Source: Cavenderia fasciculata (taxonomy: Eukaryota > Evosea > Eumycetozoa > Acytosteliales > Cavenderiaceae). Taken from it: DNA of 64,000 bases. Below are positions 21,263 through 33,600 of this stretch, piece after piece. The notes under the pieces are model-generated. The model saw nothing but the letters and a program-made list of their open reading frames with translations. It had not been told where the DNA came from and made no database searches. Made by a program: the position numbers and the translations under genes. The DNA is taken from NCBI RefSeq assembly GCF_000203815.1, contig NW_004457644.1, forward strand, positions 558,001 to 622,000, given 5' to 3'. The stretch's first letter is position 1. Every line of letters starts with the position of its first letter.

Positions 21263-21585
21263 GTTAAAATCATTTGGAGTAGTGTTGACAGGTAATATAT
21301 GTAGGAGGAAATGGTTTCTTTTAACTGGAATAGTGACAGTCTTGCTATTGGAAACTGAATTAAATAAAATGAATAATTGCAAACTTTCTTATTCATTAAA
21401 TCATCTCACGATAGTCGACGGAAAATTAAAACAAAAACATACAATATTTTAAAAATATTGTGTAGCTCACAACAGTCAATTTCAATCAATTTCATGGATG
21501 TTGGAACCATCTTGGATGATGATTTGCATCAAAAATAAGCAAAAAATGAATTGTTTCGGCGCCAAGAAAAAAACAACAAAATATA
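21263..21585. other. Spacer between importin-like fragment and tRNA
   Basis: About 320 bp of AT-rich sequence. It contains the inverted 8-mer AATATTTT/AAAATATT around 21440-21460 and the tRNA's terminator tract at 21571-21581. No gene was seen. Confidence 0.45.
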
Positions 21586-21666
21586 CGACATCTGCAGGGT
21601 TCGAACCTGCGCTCCCGAAGGAAACAGATTTCAAGTCTGTCGGCTTAACCACTCACCCAAGATGCC
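21586..21666 (-). tRNA. tRNA-Ser(UGA)
   Basis: Minus-strand cloverleaf of 81 nt. The acceptor stem is GGCATCT paired with AGATGTC, with one G-U pair and discriminator G. The anticodon arm is ACAGA-CTTGAAA-TCTGT, giving anticodon TGA. The variable arm is long (TTCC-TTCG-GGAG), as expected for class II tRNA-Ser. The T arm is GCAGG-TTCGAAC-CCTGC, which contains the B box GGTTCGAACCC. There is no intron and no encoded CCA. A TTTT run about 5 nt and a longer T-run about 8-15 nt beyond the 3' end serve as Pol III terminators. It reads codon UCA. Confidence 0.95.
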
Positions 21667-23325
21667 GACTAAAAGTTATTTGGCTCTAGGCCTTTCTATA
21701 CCCAAAAAAATTCGTCCGCTTTTTTACTGGTTGATTTCTGGTTCGGCTCCCCAGGCCTAAAAACTTTCTCCTTTTTTTGATTGTATTAATTTCTAGTCAA
21801 TCGGTTAGACTACTTGAAGGTTTTTTTAAGAACTCCTTGTTTTAACAAAATTAAGACTCATTTCTCAACCCGACAGAAGGATACCACTAAAAGTGATTTC
21901 TTGAAAAAGATGTCGATCTTTTTAATTTTAACTTGCATCTATCTTTAAATCCTTTACACAGACGAATTCCATTGATCAATTATAATATTTGTGGTTCAGA
22001 AAACATGATGAATTCATGATTTTACTTTTTTTTTTTTGAAAGAATGTAATGTAAAAAAAAAGTTATTTGTTTTGATAACTATTATAACTAAATAAATCTA
22101 CTATTAATTTAATAAAACATATTAGAATACACAAAACAAAAAGACTATTATTATAGATATTTTTTTTTTAAAGAGTTTTGTAAATTGTAAACAATTAATT
22201 AAATAATTTATTGAATAAATAGCAACATTATATTAAAAAAACAAATTATCAATCGTCATTAAATATTGCACTACATACAATAATGCTTTGTGATCCATTA
22301 ATAACAAAAAACATATAATGATTAAAGTTTAGAAATATCACAATACAAAGATTTATACTTTATTTAATTCAAAATAATAAATTTATTTCTTAACCCCTTC
22401 GGCTTGTTGTTTTTTTGACTGACTCTAAAAAAATTTATTAAATTTTTAACAGTTTCGTGTTTTTTTTTAATTTAATTATAAATTAAATATTATTGTCGTT
22501 AAAACATATTCTTTTTCAAACAAAATGACTCTCACTTTATTCAAATAATTTTAAAAAGATTAAAGGTTATCTATCTATCTATCAATCTATTTGTGATACT
22601 TGCTACGAAGATATGAGAGATTTATTTTTAGAACAGTGTGACAATGGTGGTGTTTTAAAAAAAACAATTGTGTTAAAGGGGTTAAAAAAAAAGATTTGTT
22701 TCTTTTTAAATCTGTATCATCATTCACAGCAGCACAGGTGTGTGGTGGTGACAACGACAGAGTCGAGACGATAAATCAACAACATATGTTATTGTGATTA
22801 TTATTTTTCATATTTGTGTATACCAAGGGTTCACAATTCAATCAACCGCAATCCTCTCTCTCTCTTTTCTATGTTTCTTTTACTTTCATGATGTTGCAAC
22901 GATAATAAACAAATAAACAGTAGAGTGTGGCGACTAAATAAAGAAAGAGTTTGGTTCATACCCGTTACTGTTGTTGACATCGCACCCAACCCAACCACCA
23001 CACATATCGACCTAAACAAGAATATCTAGAAAGAATCAGAACTATGGATGGCTACTTGTCCGTTTTGGTGGCCTTTTTATGAGAACTGAAAGATTTGATT
23101 TTTTTTGTCGACCCAACGCCACAGGAGGTTAAGATCAAGTCCATCGTTTATAAAAGCCAACTGTTCACAAATACACTGTTCAATCAGTTGTTATTAAATT
23201 TTTAATATTTTATTTAATGTATTACCAATAGTCTTGTAAAAACTATAAAACTATAAACAACAACCAATCATTCATTTGTACAATTATTTATTTCCTATAT
23301 ACTTTTTACTCTTCTTATTAAAAAA
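21667..23325. other. Gene-free interval upstream of the GH9 gene
   Basis: About 1.65 kb, strongly AT-rich from 21960 to 22730, with many A and T homopolymers. The part at 21690-21770 is GC-richer and carries two AGGCCT palindromes about 70 bp apart. A (CTAT)n tract lies at 22570-22583. The segment 22730-23160 is less AT-rich, with open minus frame 22831-23019 but no motif. The last 150 bp are the presumed GH9 promoter. Confidence 0.45.
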
Positions 23326-25014
23326 ATGTATTTTAAAAATGTATTAATATTTATGACCTTATTGGTCACCCTATCACAATCACAATCAACGATCGATTAT
23401 TGTCAATTACTTTCAAACTCTTTAAAGTTTTACAAGGCACAAAGAGCAGGATCTCTTCCAGACAATGATATACCATGGCGTAACAACTCGGTGCTACAAG
23501 ATGGACAAGATGTTGGCATCAACCTTTCAGGAGGCTATTTTGACGCTGGAGATTATATCAAGTTGGCCTTTCCAATGGCCTTTACCATGACCACACTCGC
23601 CTGGACCTACATTGACAATGAAGACAAGATCAAGACTACTTGCCAATTACAATCGAGCTACCTCTCTGTGTTAAAGCAGGGTACCGACTGGTTGATTGCT
23701 GCCCATCCATCCGACAATGTATTTTACACTCAAGTCTCTGACGACGGAGAACACAACGTCTGGAACAATCCATGGGAGATTGACCAAGCCGCCAGAAAGA
23801 GTTACAAGATTACTACCGCTGCTCCAGGTACCGATATGGCCATGGAGGCTGCCGCTGCACTCGCCGCCACATCCATTGTCTACAAGTCGATTGATCCAAC
23901 CTACTCTGCCACCTGTTTGGCCCACGCCAAGTCACTCTACAACTTTGGAAAGACCTACAAGGGCAAGTACTCTGATTCTTTGCCAGAACGCAAACTCTAC
24001 CCATCCAGTGGTTATGATGACGAGATGGTTTGGGCATCCGCTTGGATGTATATTGCCACTGCCGAGCAGACCTATGCTACCGATGCCACTGCCAACTTTA
24101 ACGCATACCTAAAGTCCAAGTCATTCACTGATCTCTGGTCAGCCGTCTACTCGTGGGACAGCAAGTATGCCCCTGCCGCCGTACTCATGTACAAAAAGGT
24201 CACCAATCTCGGTCTCGACTATACCAACATTATCAACCAAATCACACAAACCTATACAACCGCCTCCAAGCAATCAAATGGCATCATCTCCAATAGCGGT
24301 TGGAAATGGGGTAACAACAGATATGCCATGGGTGGTGCTTTCCTCATGTCCATGATTGGTGGTACTGCCGCCAATGCATTTGCCGAACAACAACTCACCA
24401 GTGTTTTGGGTAAATCCAGTACCAACTCTGTTTCATTTATGATTGGTTACAACAATGGTCCAGTCAATCCACATCATCGTTCATCTCATAAACCAACGGG
24501 CAAAGACATCAATACTCCAGTCAATAATGTAAACTTGCTTGTTGGTGGTCTTGTAGGTGGTCCATCACTCGAAGGTTCTTGGGTAGATTCTCGTACAAAC
24601 TATGAAAATAATGAACCTGCCTTGGATTATAATGCTGGTTTTACTGGTCTCCTTGCTAGATTTGTTAGTCAACCAAGTGCCTCCACTACTACTAGTACAC
24701 CAACTTCTACTACTTCATCGACTACTACCAATACACCAACTGGTACTACTTCATCGACTACTACCAATACACCAACCTCAACTACTTCATCAACAACTAC
24801 CAATACACCAACTTCTACTACTTCATCGACTACTACCAATACACCAACTTCGACTACTTCATCGACTTTGACTACTTCCACTTCATCGACTGCATCATCT
24901 ACCACTACCGACGGCGAAGAAGATTCATCACAGTTGGGTTCATCATCAACTGTTTCAGTCAACCTATTTGTATCATTACTTGTATTACTTGTACCAACAT
25001 TCCTTTTAATTTAA
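23326..25014 (+). CDS. Glycoside hydrolase family 9 cellulase with TP/S-rich tail, 562 aa
   Basis: Single exon. A signal peptide covers about residues 1-20 (VLIFMTLLVTLSQSQS). The catalytic domain (about 22-450) has the GH9 signatures: FYKAQRAGSLP, GGYFDAGDYIKLAFPMAFT with the two Asp of DAGDY (base/nucleophile water ligands), GTDWLIAAHP, MIGYNNGPVNPHHRSSH, and NYENNEPALDYNAGFTG with the acid Glu. These residues make an active endo-beta-1,4-glucanase likely. The 12-residue TPTSTTSSTTTN unit is then repeated about five times, followed by a Ser/Thr linker. A hydrophobic C terminus (VNLFVSLLVLLVPTFLLI) looks like a GPI-anchor signal or membrane tail. Dictyostelid cellulases act on spore-coat and stalk cellulose, for example at germination. 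Codon use here is GC-richer than in the neighbours. The TatD-like gene starts 112 bp downstream. Confidence 0.93.
   Translation: MYFKNVLIFMTLLVTLSQSQSTIDYCQLLSNSLKFYKAQRAGSLPDNDIPWRNNSVLQDGQDVGINLSGGYFDAGDYIKLAFPMAFTMTTLAWTYIDNEDKIKTTCQLQSSYLSVLKQGTDWLIAAHPSDNVFYTQVSDDGEHNVWNNPWEIDQAARKSYKITTAAPGTDMAMEAAAALAATSIVYKSIDPTYSATCLAHAKSLYNFGKTYKGKYSDSLPERKLYPSSGYDDEMVWASAWMYIATAEQTYATDATANFNAYLKSKSFTDLWSAVYSWDSKYAPAAVLMYKKVTNLGLDYTNIINQITQTYTTASKQSNGIISNSGWKWGNNRYAMGGAFLMSMIGGTAANAFAEQQLTSVLGKSSTNSVSFMIGYNNGPVNPHHRSSHKPTGKDINTPVNNVNLLVGGLVGGPSLEGSWVDSRTNYENNEPALDYNAGFTGLLARFVSQPSASTTTSTPTSTTSSTTTNTPTGTTSSTTTNTPTSTTSSTTTNTPTSTTSSTTTNTPTSTTSSTLTTSTSSTASSTTTDGEEDSSQLGSSSTVSVNLFVSLLVLLVPTFLLI
24697..24876 (+). 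repeat. 36-bp in-frame minisatellite in the GH9 gene
   Basis: Five tandem copies, the last diverged, of a 36-bp unit encoding TPTSTTSSTTTN. Copies differ mostly at third codon positions (TCT/TCG/TCA), so the amino-acid repeat is conserved more than the DNA. It forms an O-glycosylation-type linker between the catalytic domain and the C-terminal hydrophobic tail. Confidence 0.9.
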
Positions 25015-26161: not shown

Positions 26162-26274
26162 AGAAATGTTTTTAAATAAAAGTTTAGTGTAGATGTTTTA
26201 TTTAAAAGGGAAATAGGAGAATAATGATAGTTTAATATCTATTCATCAACACAGATATGGTAGGTATTTATTAT

Positions 26275-26597
26275 TTACCACCATCCATTACGAGCGCCAC
26301 GACCACCAAATCCATTGTCGATACAAAAATCAATATCAATATCGATATCGATGTTGTTACCACCACCACAACATCCACGACGACGTCTACAAGCAACTGA
26401 ATTAACAGAATCACTTGATACATCTGAATAACTTTGGTTGGTCACATTTTGATTGGTTCCATGATTAGAAATTGGTGATAGTTTTGATAGGTTTTCTAAA
26501 GAATAAGAAATATAGAATGAGAAGAGATAGTTTGTTAATAACTGTGTAAATAATATATTTAAATAAATTATTTATTTATGTTCATACTAAAGATCAT
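26275..26597 (-). CDS. HssA-like small protein, W-tail type, unit 1, 76 aa
   Basis: Two exons on the minus strand: a 10-nt first exon, 26597-26588, and 26495-26275. The 92-nt intron has a GTATGA donor and TTTAG acceptor and splits codon 4. The protein starts MIFKNLSKLSPISNHGTNQN, continues Ser/Asn-rich to NSVACRRRRGCCGGGNN, then an Ile-Asp repeat (IDIDIDIDF), one more Cys, and GFGGRGARNGWW. The layout is a Ser-rich start, NSxAC, a CCGG core, a two-residue alternating repeat and a Gly/Arg tail. It resembles the dictyostelid HssA/2C/7E family, in which the repeat is usually Leu-Gly. Those genes are developmentally regulated in large multicopy families, and no biochemical role is known. The family link is by pattern only. 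Confidence 0.72.
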
Positions 26598-26714
26598 TTT
26601 GGAGATTTTGATGATTTGGTGTAAAAAGAATTTAAAAGATAATTGTTTATATTATTTGTATACTTTGATTTGATGAATTAAAGAGAAAAAAGTTGAGTAT
26701 TTATAGCTTCAATG

Positions 26715-26798
26715 TTCTAAAAAGGTTGTTAAAATCAATCAAAAATCCTAAAATATTATTCTAAACTAATACCCCCCAATTCTAAAATAGGAATATTT
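26715..26798. promoter_or_regulatory. Shared promoter elements of HssA-like pair 1
   Basis: Two blocks are conserved in all three pairs. Block one (26715-26750) centres on AAGGTTGTTAAAATCAATCA. Block two (26772-26798) is a C-run followed by AATTCTAAAATAGGAATATT. CTAAAATAGG differs from the CArG consensus CC(A/T)6GG at one base, and the C-run recalls C-rich boxes of developmental promoters. Because both genes start from this interval, the elements probably act on both. Confidence 0.6.
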
Positions 26799-26962
26799 AA
26801 TACAGTTTTGGATTTTGATATGATTTTTAGAGAAATAATTGCTGGTTGCTAAACTATAAATATTATCGCTAAATACTATTTAATTCATCAAATATTAACA
26901 AATATTAATTAATTATCTCTTTCTTTTACTATTTACAGTTCACAAAACCAATTATTACCAAA

Positions 26963-27302
26963 ATGTTATTCAGTAAGTTTTAAAAAAAATCAAATAGTAT
27001 TACATTCATATCTATAGTTATGTGTACATACAATACATATTCTAACATTTCAATTTCCAATTTCCATTTCATTTCATTTTTCTGTTCTTTTAGAGAATCT
27101 TTCTCAACTCTCAGCAGTCTCTGGTCAATCCATCCAAAAGTCATCTTACCAAGGATCAAATCATTCAGGTGCGTCATCTGGTGAATCAACTATTGCTCGT
27201 AAAGGATGTTGTGGTGGTCGTCGCGGCCGTGGTAATAATATTGATATCGATATTGATATTGATATTAATATTGGAGGTGGTCGTGGCAATGATTGGTGTT
27301 AA
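26963..27302 (+). CDS. HssA-like small protein, C-tail type, unit 1, 72 aa
   Basis: Two exons: 26963-26972 (10 nt) and 27094-27302. The 121-nt intron has a GTAAGT donor and TTTTAG acceptor and splits codon 4, exactly as in its divergent partner. The protein starts MLFKNLSQLSAVSGQSIQKS, has a Ser/Gly-rich middle, then ARKGCCGGRRGRGNN, then IDIDIDIDINI, and ends GGGRGNDWC. It shares the MxFKNLSxLS start, the CCGG core and the Ile-Asp repeat with the minus-strand partner. The two are thus paralogues born from an inverted duplication. Three Cys are present: the CC pair and the last residue. Function is unknown. Confidence 0.72.
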
Positions 27303-27828
27303 ATACATTATTATCATCTAACAATCAAGTCAACCATTTACGACTATTAATAGTCCAAAATAAATTACTCTTGACTTTTTGTCTGTCATCTAAATATTGA
27401 TTTATAAACTCTAAAGATTACAACCACCTCTTGTAAATGAAGAAACTAACCAAGAGGATATCTTTCTTTCCATTCATTATCATCTTTCGTCAAACAGTCG
27501 TATTTGGTTTCTATGAATCTGATATTGCTTCTTCACTCTTCTTTCCAGCTATACCAAATCATTATTATTGACCGATTCACACATCGAACAAGATGAACCA
27601 AAGAGTTGATTCGTTTGTTTATCTCTTTAACATGATTTCGATTGTTGATAAAATTTTAAAAATTTTCTTGCAATCTGTTTGGCGATTCTTGAGAATAGTC
27701 AAAAAAAAAAAAAAAAAATACAATATTAATTTTAAATAAAAGTTTAGTAGATGTTTTATTTAAAAGGGAAATAGGAGAATAATCATAGTTTAAAATCTAT
27801 ATTATTCATCAGATATCATATGGTAGGA

Positions 27829-28154
27829 TTACCACCATCCACTACGAGCGCCACGACCACCAAATCCATTGTCAATACAAATATCAATATCGATATCGAT
27901 ATCGATGTTGTTACCACCACCACAACATCCACGGCGACGTCTACAAGCAACTGAATTAACAGAATCACTTGATACATCTGAAATACTTTGGTTGGTCACA
28001 TTTTGATTGGTTCCATGATTTGAAATTGGTGATAGTTTTGATAGGTTTTCTAAAGAATACGAAAAATGGAATGAGAAGAGATAGATAGTTGGTTAAGTTA
28101 ATAACTGTAAATAAAATTAAATAAATTATTTATTATGTCATTACTAAAGATCAT
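27829..28154 (-). CDS. HssA-like small protein, W-tail type, unit 2, 76 aa
   Basis: Two exons: 28154-28145 and 28049-27829, with the same phase-1 intron in codon 4 (95 nt, GTAATG donor). The product is nearly identical to the unit 1 copy through NSVACRRRRGCCGGGNN. It then reads IDIDIDIDICIDNGFGGRGA and ends RSGWW. The coding exon has the same length as in units 1 and 3 (221 nt), and no indel separates the copies. This is what purifying selection or gene conversion would leave. Confidence 0.72.
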
Positions 28155-28283
28155 TTTGGAGATTTTGATGATTTTGAGTAAATAGAATTTAAAAGATAAT
28201 TGTTGATAATATTATTATTTGTATACTTTGATTTGATGAATTGAAATAGTGTAAAAAAGGTTGAATATTTATAGTTTGAAATG

Positions 28284-28367
28284 TTCTAAAAAGGTTGTTA
28301 AAATCAATCAAAATATTATTCTAAAATGATTACTAATAACCCCCCCAATTCTAAAATAGGAATATTT
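28284..28367. promoter_or_regulatory. Shared promoter elements of HssA-like pair 2
   Basis: Same two blocks as pair 1. AAGGTTGTTAAAATCAATCA lies at about 28291-28310. The C7 run with AATTCTAAAATAGGAATATT spans about 28340-28366. The near-CArG decamer is identical to that of pair 1. Confidence 0.6.
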
Positions 28368-28537
28368 AAATAAAGTTTTGGATTTTGATTTGATTTTTAG
28401 AGAAACAATTGATGGTTGCTAAACTATAAATATTTATCACTAAATACTATTTAATTCATCAAATATTAACAAATATTAATTAATTAAATTATCTCTTTCT
28501 CTACTATTTACAGTTCTCAAAACCAATTATTACCAAA

Positions 28538-28855
28538 ATGTTATTCAGTAAGTTTGTAATAGTAATATATTCATAGAATGTATATATATAGTTGTGTATA
28601 ATATTCTAACATTTCAGTTTCCAATTTCCATTTCATTTTTCTTTTCTTTTAGAGAATCTTTCTCAACTCTCAGCAGTCTCTGGTCAATCCATCCAAAAGT
28701 CATCTTACCAAGGATCAAATCATTCCGGTGTATCATCTGGTGAATCAACTATTGCTCGTAGAGGATGTTGTGGTGGTCGTCGCGGCCGTGGTAATAATAT
28801 TGATATCGATATTGATATTGATATTAATATTGGTAATGGCAACAACTGGTGTTAA
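28538..28855 (+). CDS. HssA-like small protein, C-tail type, unit 2, 70 aa
   Basis: Two exons: 28538-28547 and 28653-28855, with the same codon-4 intron (105 nt). The start MLFKNLSQLSAVSGQSIQKS is identical to the unit 1 copy. The core is ARRGCCGGRRGRGNN, followed by IDIDIDIDINI and a shorter tail, GNGNNWC. It lacks the two extra Gly/Arg residues of the unit 1 tail. The DNA of the Ile-Asp repeat (GATATCGATATTGATATTGA) is nearly self-complementary to that of the minus-strand partners. Confidence 0.72.
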
Positions 28856-29455
28856 ATACATTATTATCATCATCTATCAATCAAGTCAACCGTATATGAC
28901 TATTAATAGCCAAAATAAATTTACTCTTGTCTTTTTGTCTGCCATCTAAATATATATATTGATTGATTTATACACCACTCTAAAGATAACAACCACCTCT
29001 TGTAATAAAGATACTACATTGTTGATTAGAATTGAGTGTTTGGAAAGAAAGAACTCTTGGTCTATTAATTTGGTGACATACCTTTATATCAGTGTATCTC
29101 ATCGAAGGATGTACATATTGAGCAAACCAAGCCAACGCCATGATCCTGCGTAACCAAGAGGATGTATTTCTTTCATTCAATACCATCTTTCATATGTCAA
29201 ATCATTATTGACTGTTTCACTTATTGCAACGAGTTGATTCGTTTGTTTATCTCTAAACATTATTTCGATTGTAGAGAATATTATTAAATTTTATTTCGAT
29301 CACACAGAAGATCAAAGGCAAAAAAAAAAAAAAGAAAATTAATTAAAAATGTTTTTAAACAAAAGTTTAGTGTTGATGTTTTATTTAAAAGGAAGAATAA
29401 TGATAGTATAATATCTATATTATTCATCAACACAGAAATGGGAGGTATTTAGACA

Positions 29456-29807
29456 TTACCACCATCCACTACGAGCGCCACGACCACTAAAACCATTGTC
29501 AATACAAATATCAATATCAATATCGATATCGATGTTGTTACCACCACCACAACATCCACGACGACGTCTACAAGCAACTGAATTAACAGAATCACTTGAT
29601 ACATCTGAATAGCTTTGGTTGGTCACATTTTGATTGGTTCCATGATTTGAAATTGGTGATAGTTTTGATAGGTTTTCTAAAGAATAAGAAAAAAAAAAAA
29701 AAGGAAATGGAACAATAGATGGGATGGTAAGTACTAAGTAATATTATTATTATTATTATCATTTTTTTTAATGTCTACTATTATGTGTGTGACATACTAA
29801 AGATCAT
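29456..29807 (-). CDS. HssA-like small protein, W-tail type, unit 3, 76 aa
   Basis: Two exons: 29807-29798 and 29676-29456. The codon-4 intron is 121 nt with a GTATGT donor. The product matches the other W-tail copies, with ACRRRRGCCGGGNN, IDIDIDIDICIDNGFSGRGA and a tail ending WW. One Gly in the tail is changed to Ser. The intron carries an A-run and an ATT repeat absent from units 1 and 2, so intron sequence has drifted while the exon has not. Confidence 0.72.
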
Positions 29808-29940
29808 TTTAGATTTGATTTGATAAAAATAGAATTTGAATAATAATTTAATTGTTAATTAATTGTTTGTTTGAATATTTGTATTTGTTTTGAATGATTT
29901 TAAAAGGAATGAACAAGTTTACTATTTATAGTTTAGAATT

Positions 29941-30017
29941 GTCTAAAAAGATTGTTAAAATCAATCAAAAATCCTATATTCCATGATGACTATGCACCCC
30001 CAATTCTATAATAGGAA
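29941..30017. promoter_or_regulatory. Shared promoter elements of HssA-like pair 3
   Basis: Diverged versions of the two blocks: AAGATTGTTAAAATCAATCA at about 29948-29967, and C5-AATTCTATAATAGGAA at about 29997-30017. The CArG-like decamer reads CTATAATAGG, so it keeps the ends and the AT core. The distance between blocks is preserved to within about 10 bp. Confidence 0.55.
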
Positions 30018-30181
30018 AAACCTAAAATGGTTGGATTTTTTCATAGTTTTTTTAAAGTATTCATTACATTTATTAACTATAAATAATGAGCATTGAATAG
30101 CAGTAATTCATCAAATCAAATCAAATTAAATTAATTATCTCTTTCTTTCCTATTTACAGTTAATACTATCAAATCAATAAA

Positions 30182-30462
30182 ATGTTATTCAGTAAGTTAA
30201 ACAAGAATCATAATCATAAAAATACCAATTAACAAGAATTCTTTTCCAAAACATTTTTCTTTTAGAGAATCTTTCTCAACTCTCAGCAGTCTCTGGTCAT
30301 TCCATCCAAAATTCTTCTTACCAAGGATCAAATCATTCCAGTGTATCATCTGGTGAATCAACTATTACTCGTAGAGGTTGTTGTGGTGGTCGTCGTCGTA
30401 ATAATATTGATATCGATATTGATATTGATCTTAATATTGGTAATGGCAACAACTGGTGTTAA
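30182..30462 (+). CDS. HssA-like small protein, C-tail type, unit 3, 68 aa
   Basis: Two exons: 30182-30191 and 30266-30462. The intron is shorter (74 nt) at the same codon-4 position. The start MLFKNLSQLSAVSGHSIQNS differs by two residues from the other copies. The core is TRRGCCGGRRRNN, followed by IDIDIDIDLNI and the tail GNGNNWC. It is the shortest and most diverged of the three plus-strand copies, in keeping with unit 3 being the oldest or least converted. Confidence 0.72.
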
Positions 30463-30668
30463 ATAGATTGATATTATCATCTATCAAACAAAAACATGTA
30501 TACCATAAAAATAAATGTTTTGTTTCAAGTGCTATTATAAAATAGACACCATCAATTTAAATTTAGATAATTTATTATTTTCTTTTAATTTCTTTTATTT
30601 TCTTTATTGGTGTGTTTCAATACCTTATTATTTTATTGATACCTTTTTTTTTTTTGTTTGTTTTTTGT

Positions 30669-33600
30669 TTAATTTGGTCTTTGAATAAATCTTATTGGAT
30701 TTACTTTGGTTAATAGAATTGATAATAAAACAAACATTACCAAAACCAAACCAACAAGTGAGAAGAAATTTTTAATAAATAGGTATGATTTACTTGATCC
30801 ATTCAATGGGACTAGTTTGACCTGATGTGAAGAGGAGGAGGTTGATTTAATAGCCAACTCATTTTGTTGTTGTTTAATTGTTTGTTGTTGTTTTTGATTT
30901 AATTGTTTACGATTATTTAGATCATTGGTCAAGTGTTTAAATTCCGTCATTTGTTTAGTGATCCATTCATCAATCTCTAATTGTAGTACCGATATTGTTT
31001 CATTAAATGATTCCAAATGTGGTTCAAGTTGTGGTTTTGATTCTACACCTCTTAATAATCCATTAATCTCTAATGTTTGTAATCTTTCTTCTTCCAAAAC
31101 GCGTTTTTGTTGTTGATGTTGTTCGTCTTGTTGTTCAAAATGATTTTGATCTTGTTTTGTTTTTAAATAATTAATTAATCCTTGAATAGTTGATACCATT
31201 TGTTTTACAATTTCATTGTATTGCAAGTTTGCCAATTGTTTTTGTTCCGTGTATCGTTTGGTGAGCGTTTCTATTTGATTATTGTAATTTTGAATTTCAT
31301 CGGCGTGTTGATTTAATGCGAGTTGGTGTTCTTTGGTAGCACTTTCAATAGTCGCTTTCATTTCTTGGTTTACTTGATCAGCTTCTTTTAATTTCTTGAC
31401 AACTCCCATGGCTCGTTCAGTCAAGGTCGTGTGTTTGGTTGCCAATTCATTCTTTTCTTTTTCCAATTGATCATATTTTGTCTTTTGTTCAGCCGATAAC
31501 CGTTCATATTCTCTAGTCTTTGTTTTTAATTGTTGATCATAACCATTTTTCAAATTTTCAATCGATCCAATTTGTAGACTTGACAATTGATCAATTTCAT
31601 TAACTGCTTTAGCCAATTCATTTTTCAATTTTGTATTTTCCAACTGAATAGTTTGTTCATTTTGATTTTTCTTTTCCAATTGTTCATCCAAACTTTTCTT
31701 TTCATTAATTGCTTTTTCCAATTCCTCTTTTAATTTTATATTTTCAATATTTGATTGATCACTTGATTGATCATTTTCCAATTTAATCTTTTCCAATTGC
31801 AACTGAATAGTTTGTTCATTTTGATTTTTCTTTTCCAATTGTTCATCCAAACTTTTCTTTTCATTGATTGCTTTTTCCAATTCCTCTCTCAATTTTATAT
31901 TTTGAATATTTGATTGTTGACTTGATTGATCATTTTCCAATTTAATCTTTTCCAAATTTGATTGTAAATTATTAATCTCCAATTCTTTTAATTTTTGTTC
32001 ATTTTTAATAGTGTCCAATTGATTTTGTAAATTGTTCAATTCCATTTCCTTTTCTTTTGTAATTTTTGTAATTTCTTGTATCTTTTCTTCTATTTTTTCT
32101 TGTTGTTTTGATAATTGTTGATTTAAATTTTCAATTTGTTGATTTAAATTGTCAAGTTGTGTTTGATGATCAGTAGTTGTAAGTACTTGAATTTGCATTT
32201 TTAAATTATCAATAGTTGCAATTAAATCTTCACTATTATTATTTTCCAAATGATTTAATTTCTTTTGATCATCCAATTGTGATTGACCAAGAATTGAAGA
32301 ATTTAAATAGGTATTTTGAACTATAATATTTTGTTGTTCTTTTTCAACCAATAACCGTTGTTGTTGAAGTTCTTTTTGATGTTGATCTTCTTCTTGATTC
32401 TTTAAATCTTGTAATAGAGTTTCAAACTCTTTGGCATTTTTCTCCAACGTGGCAATACGTTTTCTTAATCCTTTAATCTCTTGGTCTTTGGTTTCAATCT
32501 CGTCAGATAGATTCTCTTGTTTTTGTTCATTTTTGGCAAGTTCTTCCTTTTGTTTGGTGATTTGGTCAGTCGATCGTTGTTTATGTTTTTTTAAATCATC
32601 CACTTCCTTTTGAGTGTCCAACTCTCGTTGTTTACTCTTTTCAAGTTCCGTAGTAAGATTTGATTTCTTTTTCTCCTTTTCTCGAATGACTTGAGCTTCT
32701 CTTTTCACCTTGGCCAATTCCTTGTTACTACCATCCAATTCCTGTACAACCTTTTGGTATCTTTCTTCGGCCTCATTTTTAGATGTGATTGCTAGTTTTT
32801 CATTGTCCTTTGATGCAATCAATTCTCTCTCTAATCTATTCACCTCTAATTGTAAAAACTCTTGTGTACTAATCTCTGTACCATAAGTTCCTACTCCTTC
32901 AAAATCTCCACTTGGTGGTATCATCTAAAAAACAAAGATAAAGAAACAAAAAATAAAATTAGAGACAAACATTTTTTTCTTTTTCTTTTTTTTTGATTTA
33001 CATACAGATTGAAATAATCTATTATTTCCTTGTAAAATACGAATTGGATGATCTTCAAGGTCATAAGAGGAATCATCAGTCATGGTTGAAGTATAACCTT
33101 TTTGCATTTCCAAAAACTCTGCATTGGAACAAATACCATCTCTAAAGGGAAGGTTACCAATGATGTATTCTTGATGTTCTTCGTTATAGGCCGCTAGGAT
33201 TTCCTTCATTTCATTGATTGTAATGTATCCTTGAGGATCACTTTCAATTCTCTTGTAGAATGCGTGTAATTCATTTTCTTCGTTTGGTGGTGTTTTCAAT
33301 TGATCGTCAAATGAATATTCATCATTATATTCTTGATCATATTTATATGATCCATGTTGTTGAGATTGTTGTTGAGATGGTATTGAAATGGGAGTAGATG
33401 GGAATTGAGTCATACTTGTCAAATAATGATTTCTGCGTACTGTGAAATGTGGTGATGTTGGTCCAAATGATGAATTGTTATTTGTTGAATGATCCTCTTG
33501 ATTATTATTATTATCTGTTTGTTGATTTTGTTGTTTAAATATAGATTGATGTATCTTTTTGTTATTTTCATTTAATTCATTACTTATCAATTGTTGTTGT

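Follow-up and report, generated by a model that had tools for sequence, protein, structure and literature searches.

Short genes arranged head to head form a dispersed family in the social amoeba Cavenderia fasciculata. The window analysed here, a stretch of 64,000 nucleotides (contig NW_004457644.1, positions 558,001 to 622,000), carries three such pairs across positions 26275-30462, each with an M gene on the minus strand and a P gene on the plus strand. We propose, with a probability of about 0.62, that these genes represent a tail-less offshoot of the HssA/2C/7E family whose proteins carry a short Ile-Asp stretch, and that the M and P members of a pair are co-expressed from a bidirectional promoter organised around one box. 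This proposal is carried by a box that is almost exclusive to the pairs, by its fixed spacing from a TATA-like element on the P side, and by genome-wide pairing.

All six window genes have a first exon of 10 nt and an intron of 74-121 nt that interrupts codon 4 past its first base, begins with GTA and finishes with TTTAG. Read without splicing, each of the six reaches a stop within 6-18 codons. The gene models are built from open reading frames and public annotations, not transcripts; in Dictyostelium discoideum, the comparably tiny first exon of sigN is backed by a cDNA (PMC2257962). An initial annotation of this DNA had recognised six genes in three head-to-head pairs, with the 10-nt exon and phase-1 intron, and we find all of these as it stated, although in stopping at the window its scope was too narrow. 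Its unit size of 1.2-1.6 kb needs correction, as repeat spacings of 1554/1627 and 1559/1613 bp give units of about 1.55-1.63 kb, with start codons 365, 383 and 374 bp apart within the pairs. The different endings that it assigned to the partners hold for GWW in M and for NWC in P2 and P3, but P1 ends in DWC.

The M/P pair is a unit dispersed across the genome in about a dozen copies. In the 31.0-Mb C. fasciculata genome (21 contigs), M1 used as a query matches at least 31 places at E <= 0.001, so its gene family is not a product of chance, and P1 matches at least 33 places at E <= 0.1, overlapping the M1 set; both counts are lower bounds. Full gene models were built for 25 members, comprising 10 M, 13 P and two with mixed features (H_C3 and H_C2h). 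Public C. fasciculata proteins, 13 in number, are identical to 14 of these 25 spliced models, while public models P0003, P0005 and P0006 differ from ours. Nine M/P pairs are intact, three in the window, three on C12, two on C2 and one on C20, and a P/P pair lies at C2:731755 and 732128. Elsewhere the pairs are damaged: the M gene at C2:736 lacks a recognisable first exon, the C2:923 pair has a decayed P and an M with a GC donor, and both genes of the C18 pair have decayed. Family fragments occur at C2:936 and C5:2322, and M_C11 is shortened, with part of its core gone and an atypical end. HssA-type genes that retain a tail occupy at least seven places in this genome (C21, three on C1, C5, C2:1181 and C20:345), and there are no divergent pairs among the seven found; the three on C1 share one strand.

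The central box and its promoter

Between-start promoters range from 336 to 393 bp across cassettes. When aligned, they have a single common block, a central box of 20 bases that lies on the P-sense strand in M/P pairs and is oriented toward one of the two genes in the P/P pair. With no more than one mismatch, the box pattern has 13 matches in the genome, and every one lies between divergent family copies or their remnants, whereas the backwards pattern, used as a control, has no genome matches. These sites comprise the nine intact M/P pairs, the P/P pair, the pair whose M lacks a recognisable exon 1, the pair with a decayed P and the pair with both genes decayed, the remnants being identified by eye. 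Six more matches appear at three mismatches; one adjoins a family fragment (C2:935935), and at the other five no family member was seen when the loci were read.

Promoter geometry was measured on the 10 pairs that have both start codons and a box. Here, the box forms the 20 most conserved promoter columns (0.985 against a mean of 0.70), followed by the stretch AAAATCAATCAAAAATCC on the M side (0.965). In all ten pairs, the distance between the P-side TATA-like element and the centre of the box is 70-72 bp. The M-side element lies at 82-84 bp in six pairs and at 92 bp in two, and was not found in the remaining two. Pairs a and b on C12 (L017) have the 92-bp distance, about one helical turn more than 82-84 bp. 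Since nearly every pair centres on the same rare box, joint activation of its two genes is probable.

The head-to-head layout might instead be a mere scar of inverted duplication, with a separate promoter arm for each gene, no coupling between them, and a box left over because the copies are young. Inverted symmetry between the arms in five of the ten pairs would fit such an origin, as would the TATA-like elements present on both arms in eight of ten. So would the absence of a box within 450 bp of the solo genes M_C11, H_C3 and H_C2h (best candidates 6-8 mismatches) and likewise at P_C7, though at the three solos the missing box counts for our proposal as well. We nevertheless consider a mere scar unlikely, because the box is better conserved than the rest of the promoter, which differs by 22% on average (9 pairs), because the P-side spacing is constant, and because all 13 box sites separate divergent copies or remnants.

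Several loci record natural losses. At C2:753669-754020 (L012), a truncated copy, the second exons of an M and a P are fused in inverted orientation, the entire promoter and both first exons having been deleted. At C7:1499661-1500349 (L022), the C-rich half of the box is gone, as is most of the coding sequence of M, and the P frame is still open. A mixed-type member at C2:907677-907383 (L013) has no box upstream and lies downstream of what, by eye, looks like the last part of a calmodulin gene. Finally, C5:2322153-2322257 (L035) is a solitary, decayed M-like copy containing stops.

Coordinates within the window are collected in Table 1; M1, P2 and P3 each have an identical counterpart among public proteins. 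Three further features of the window lie outside the pairs. A minus-strand, coiled-coil-like open reading frame of 751 codons (30669-32924) contains a 159-base repeat in two direct copies that are 96% identical (31638-31955). A 562-codon open reading frame at 23326-25014 resembles, by eye, a family 9 glycoside hydrolase whose linker is rich in Thr/Ser and whose C-terminus is hydrophobic. ARAGORN places a tRNA-Ser (tga) on the minus strand at 21585-21667.

Table 1. Genes and promoter elements of the three window pairs
Feature	Position	Strand	Details
M1 gene	26275..26597	-	exons 26597-26588 + 26495-26275; 76 aa; GWW end; public protein P0001, DFA_09376
P1 gene	26963..27302	+	exons 26963-26972 + 27094-27302; 72 aa; DWC end
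M2 gene	27829..28154	-	exons 28154-28145 + 28049-27829; 76 aa; GWW end
P2 gene	28538..28855	+	exons 28538-28547 + 28653-28855; 70 aa; NWC end; public protein P0007, DFA_09379
M3 gene	29456..29807	-	exons 29807-29798 + 29676-29456; 76 aa; GWW end
P3 gene	30182..30462	+	exons 30182-30191 + 30266-30462; 68 aa; NWC end; public protein P0012, DFA_09382
Central box, pair 1	26774..26793	+	exact match to 20-base pattern, P-sense
Central box, pair 2	28343..28362	+	exact match
Central box, pair 3	29998..30017	+	one mismatch
TATA-like CTATAAA, P1	26854..26860	+	71 bp from box centre
TATA-like element, M1	26700..26706	-	83 bp from box centre
TATA-like element, P2	28424..28430	+	72 bp from box centre
TATA-like element, M2	28268..28274	-	84 bp from box centre
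TATA-like element, P3	30077..30083	+	70 bp from box centre
TATA-like element, M3	29925..29931	-	82 bp from box centre
Promoter, pair 3	29808..30181	.	sequence class near C2 and C20 pairs, unlike pairs 1 and 2

Selection, duplication and exchange

Genome-wide, both gene classes are under purifying selection. The pooled ratio of nonsynonymous to synonymous substitution (dN/dS) is 0.22 for the 10 M genes (codon-bootstrap interval 0.12-0.38) and 0.39 for the 13 P genes (0.25-0.58); the window M copies alone give 0.22 (0.03-0.95). Five M copies do not enter these estimates or the trees: C2:736, whose exon 1 is unrecognisable; C2:923, with its GC donor; the truncated C2:753; C2:990, for which no first exon could be located; and the decayed C5:2322. 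Selection of this kind also bears on the idea that transcripts rather than proteins carry the function, which draws on a report that frame-shifted and in-frame over-expression of hssA both suppressed a culmination defect (PMC6198379). We consider this highly improbable, given that the pooled ratios fall below 1 with intervals that exclude it in both classes, and that the Cys core and Ile-Asp stretch are retained while introns diverge (M_C11, with its incomplete core and unusual end, is an exception).

The initial annotation observed that exons are kept while introns drift. This is true, but it is not the whole story, as synonymous sites in the window are alike too. Pooled synonymous divergence (dS) there is 0.085 and 0.107 (about 8-10%), and introns differ at 22-53% of aligned sites. 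To account for low dS beside divergent introns, protein selection has to be joined by conversion of the exons or by constraint acting on synonymous sites, and one or the other is likely.

Trees and distances suggest how the pairs have multiplied. In the protein tree, a branch with support 79/98, present in 98% of bootstrap trees, separates the M proteins from the rest, and HssA-type proteins are set apart (99/100); P proteins appear as a single group in only 30% of bootstrap trees. A Mantel test over the nine intact M/P pairs shows that coding distances of M track those of P (r 0.69, p 0.0013), which is what multiplication of whole pairs would produce, and P coding distance correlates with promoter distance (r 0.53, p 0.011).

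Two tandem duplications, the history first put forward for the window, is too simple an account. The promoter of pair 3 is 90% identical to that of the C2b pair, on another contig, versus 72% to its neighbours', and yet its second exons are 97% (M) and 91-96% (P) identical to the neighbouring ones. On the M side, identity of the flank is 75-76% with its neighbours versus 51-62% with other pairs; the P-side flank, at 45-48% to its neighbours, is no closer to them than to others (41-53%). These mosaic identities rule out a plain tandem origin for pair 3, and point to conversion or promoter exchange, which very likely followed duplication.

A mosaic promoter of this kind, together with copies on several contigs and decayed ones at C18, C2:923, C2:936, C2:753, C7 and C5:2322, could also be the mark of a selfish or hitch-hiking cassette that recombination and conversion have spread and that brings its host little benefit. 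We give this account very little credence in view of the purifying selection on M and P proteins, and of the related D. discoideum families, which are described as developmental genes (PMC2257962).

Kinship with HssA/2C/7E-type proteins

Alignment of profiles and introns shows common descent with HssA/2C/7E-type proteins, a kinship that the initial annotation had correctly suspected. Comparison with an HssA-type profile by hhalign gives 97.6% and 97.4% over 57 columns, and the codon split by the intron falls in the same alignment column in Ile-Asp and HssA-type genes. The two groups also share a Cys-Gly core, with NSVAC in M and GCCGG in both M and P. However, matches to the Pfam model of the family (PF05710, 'Coiled') score near or below its cut-off of 21.4 (M1 21.8, M3 19.1, P1 14.4, P3 none), and in a genome scan three of the five Ile-Asp places listed exceed it. 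Exon 1 measures 10 nt in the 25 Ile-Asp models and 13 nt in four C. fasciculata HssA-type models, counts that are not independent proof, as model building searched for exons of that length. The main difference is a missing Gly/Leu-rich tail: in the alignment, Ile-Asp proteins stop where the HssA-type tail continues, which makes them an offshoot rather than ordinary members of the family.

It had been suggested that Leu-Gly was replaced by Ile-Asp, which is probably not so. In HssA-type proteins of Acytostelium and Heterostelium, and in the product of one C. fasciculata gene (C5), the Cys core is already followed by an alternating I/L/V-D/N stretch, which leads up to the Gly-Leu tail. Because this stretch precedes the tail, loss of the tail and purification of the repeat is a shorter path than replacement. 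We infer loss of the Gly-Leu tail, with the older I/L/V-D stretch turning into a purer Ile-Asp repeat. The length of this stretch is constant in 12 of 13 P and all 10 M models (12 and 7 residues in the mixed models), and a slipping microsatellite is unlikely to lie behind it, as length is constant while codons vary. Pfam also gives weak similarities to Shisa_N, DUF5407, PT-VENN and YmgL, which we regard as chance. A search of solved structures with P2 returned nothing at E <= 1, and AlphaFold2 models of M and P gave no usable fold, with a mean predicted local distance difference test (pLDDT) score of 46.6 and 47.8.

The short form extends beyond C. fasciculata. Of 7994 candidates scored in a profile search, 25 proteins reached E <= 1, comprising 16 from C. 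fasciculata, three from Polysphondylium violaceum, four from Acytostelium subglobosum, one from Heterostelium album and one other. The search of other dictyostelids proposed by the initial annotation thus recovered the Ile-Asp short form in P. violaceum, but no D. discoideum protein is among the matches listed, which does not imply absence, as these searches require shared exact words and one of them scored only the best 7994 candidates. The P. violaceum proteins CYY_001226, CYY_006789 and CYY_007508 have 69-74 aa, a GCCGG core, an Ile-Asp stretch and an NWC end. They differ in their start (MIFNTISQIA or similar), were compared as proteins only, and have no firm place in the tree. P. violaceum belongs to the Dictyosteliales and C. 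fasciculata to the Acytosteliales, so the short Ile-Asp form is either old or has arisen twice. CRISPR knock-in is reported to have worked in P. violaceum (PMC13046832).

Inverted pairing within this family is already known from sigN of D. discoideum (PMC2257962), where GBF-like sites and prestalk promoters are also described. The initial annotation had not seen the Ile-Asp form described, and we found no description of this subfamily in the open-licence literature searched (the box itself was not searched for there). According to the same source, sigN genes are small inverted neighbours, presumably multiplied as pairs, that share an upstream region and have a tiny first coding exon (13 nt, as in 89 of 96 sigN-like genes), one intron, and a Ser-, Cys- and Gly-rich product. 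The partners paired here belong to two distinct classes, whereas genes within one sigN group are near copies, with about 95% identity in Group 2. In place of one central box, the palindromic promoters of Group 2 carry two pairs of GBF-like sites. The C. fasciculata genes also have a first exon one codon shorter, and their proteins end shortly after a short Ile-Asp stretch.

What the pairs may do

We suggest that each cassette, one M and one P head to head with one central box and usually a TATA-like element per arm, would work as follows. The box would be the one site from which an activator switches on both genes during development, probably in prestalk or stalk-lineage cells by analogy with sigN. 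Both proteins might be largely disordered, with the stretch of 11-12 residues forming one beta-strand that has an Ile face and an Asp/Asn face. M and P could then, more speculatively, either co-assemble weakly or cap strands that are prone to aggregate, as has been proposed for SRCP1. This small D. discoideum protein, placed in the same gene class (PMC8554618) and likened here by description, has a C-terminal pseudo-amyloid domain (PMC8741877), and an 88-aa anti-polyglutamine protein (Santarriaga 2018) has been assigned to the class (PMC8554618).

This chaperone-like step, and no other, competes with the possibility that M and P are secreted or belong to the matrix of the stalk or slime sheath, with cysteines and beta-strands providing the cross-links. 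Vesicle staining, the break-up of mounds by antibody and a composition like that of small insoluble matrix proteins (all PMC2257962) argue for a matrix role. However, the protein start, judged by eye, is not signal peptide-like, and that source could demonstrate neither antibody specificity nor surface staining; we consider the matrix role somewhat unlikely. The family literature allows both locations: SRCP1 limits polyglutamine aggregation, an intracellular role (PMC8578527, PMC8741877), and the disruption of mounds by antibodies against Group 2 SigN would fit an extracellular one (PMC2257962).

The GBF-like pattern (T/G)G(T/G)G(T/G)G(T/G), as defined in PMC2257962, fits the reversed C-run of the box in 11 of 13 cases, excluding C20 and the decayed C18. 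The second half of the box resembles SRF and MEF2 sites without matching them, and a relaxed form of our own devising, C(C/T)(A/T)6(A/G)G, fits all 13 boxes.

Several observations weigh against co-expression of M and P from the box. The GBF-like pattern is so frequent (about 2.4 per kb, with 154 occurrences on both strands of the window) that its fit is a weak sign. The strict SRF site CC(A/T)6GG fits none of the 13 boxes, and window matches to the strict MEF2 site CTA(A/T)4TAG miss all three window boxes (site definitions from PMC3640940). Inverted symmetry of the arms exceeds shuffles in only half of the ten pairs (0 of 300 shuffles as high in C16a, C16b and C2a, and 1 of 300 in C12a and C12b); for the remaining pairs, the shuffles that score as high number between 16 and 214 of 300. 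Shared ancestry could explain much of the promoter similarity, and M coding distance does not correlate significantly with promoter distance (r 0.35, p 0.059). The P/P pair shows that partnership between M and P is not a strict rule, and the C7 cassette kept an open P frame after losing the box and most of M, which means either that the box is dispensable for P or that this P may be dying. Window P copies alone have a dN/dS of 0.44 (0.18-1.24), inseparable from 1 with few changes, so the comparison of copies that the initial annotation had proposed indicates constraint on both classes only when pooled genome-wide. The genes are known here from DNA and annotation, a low pLDDT from 16-17 sequences says little about disorder, and deletion of 13 sigN genes in D. 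discoideum is reported to have given no phenotype (PMC2257962).

A bolder version of our proposal is that M and P form a two-component system of a dozen cassettes with a private box, in which complementary Ile/Asp strands would always be made jointly and co-assemble. On this version the form would predate the split between dictyostelid orders, because P. violaceum has it. We regard this as doubtful, and as a good deal less probable than co-expression from a shared promoter.

HssA/2C/7E is a large and poorly understood social amoeba family, with 96 sigN-like genes in D. discoideum (PMC2257962). Despite the lack of a phenotype on deletion of 13 of these genes, the class is said to hold a suppressor of polyglutamine aggregation (PMC2257962, PMC8554618). 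C. fasciculata presents a smaller and cleaner version of this family, with two sharp protein classes, an almost private box and natural losses of box or partner. This makes it possible to test whether pairing means co-expression, and whether an Ile-Asp strand can replace the work of the Gly-Leu tail.

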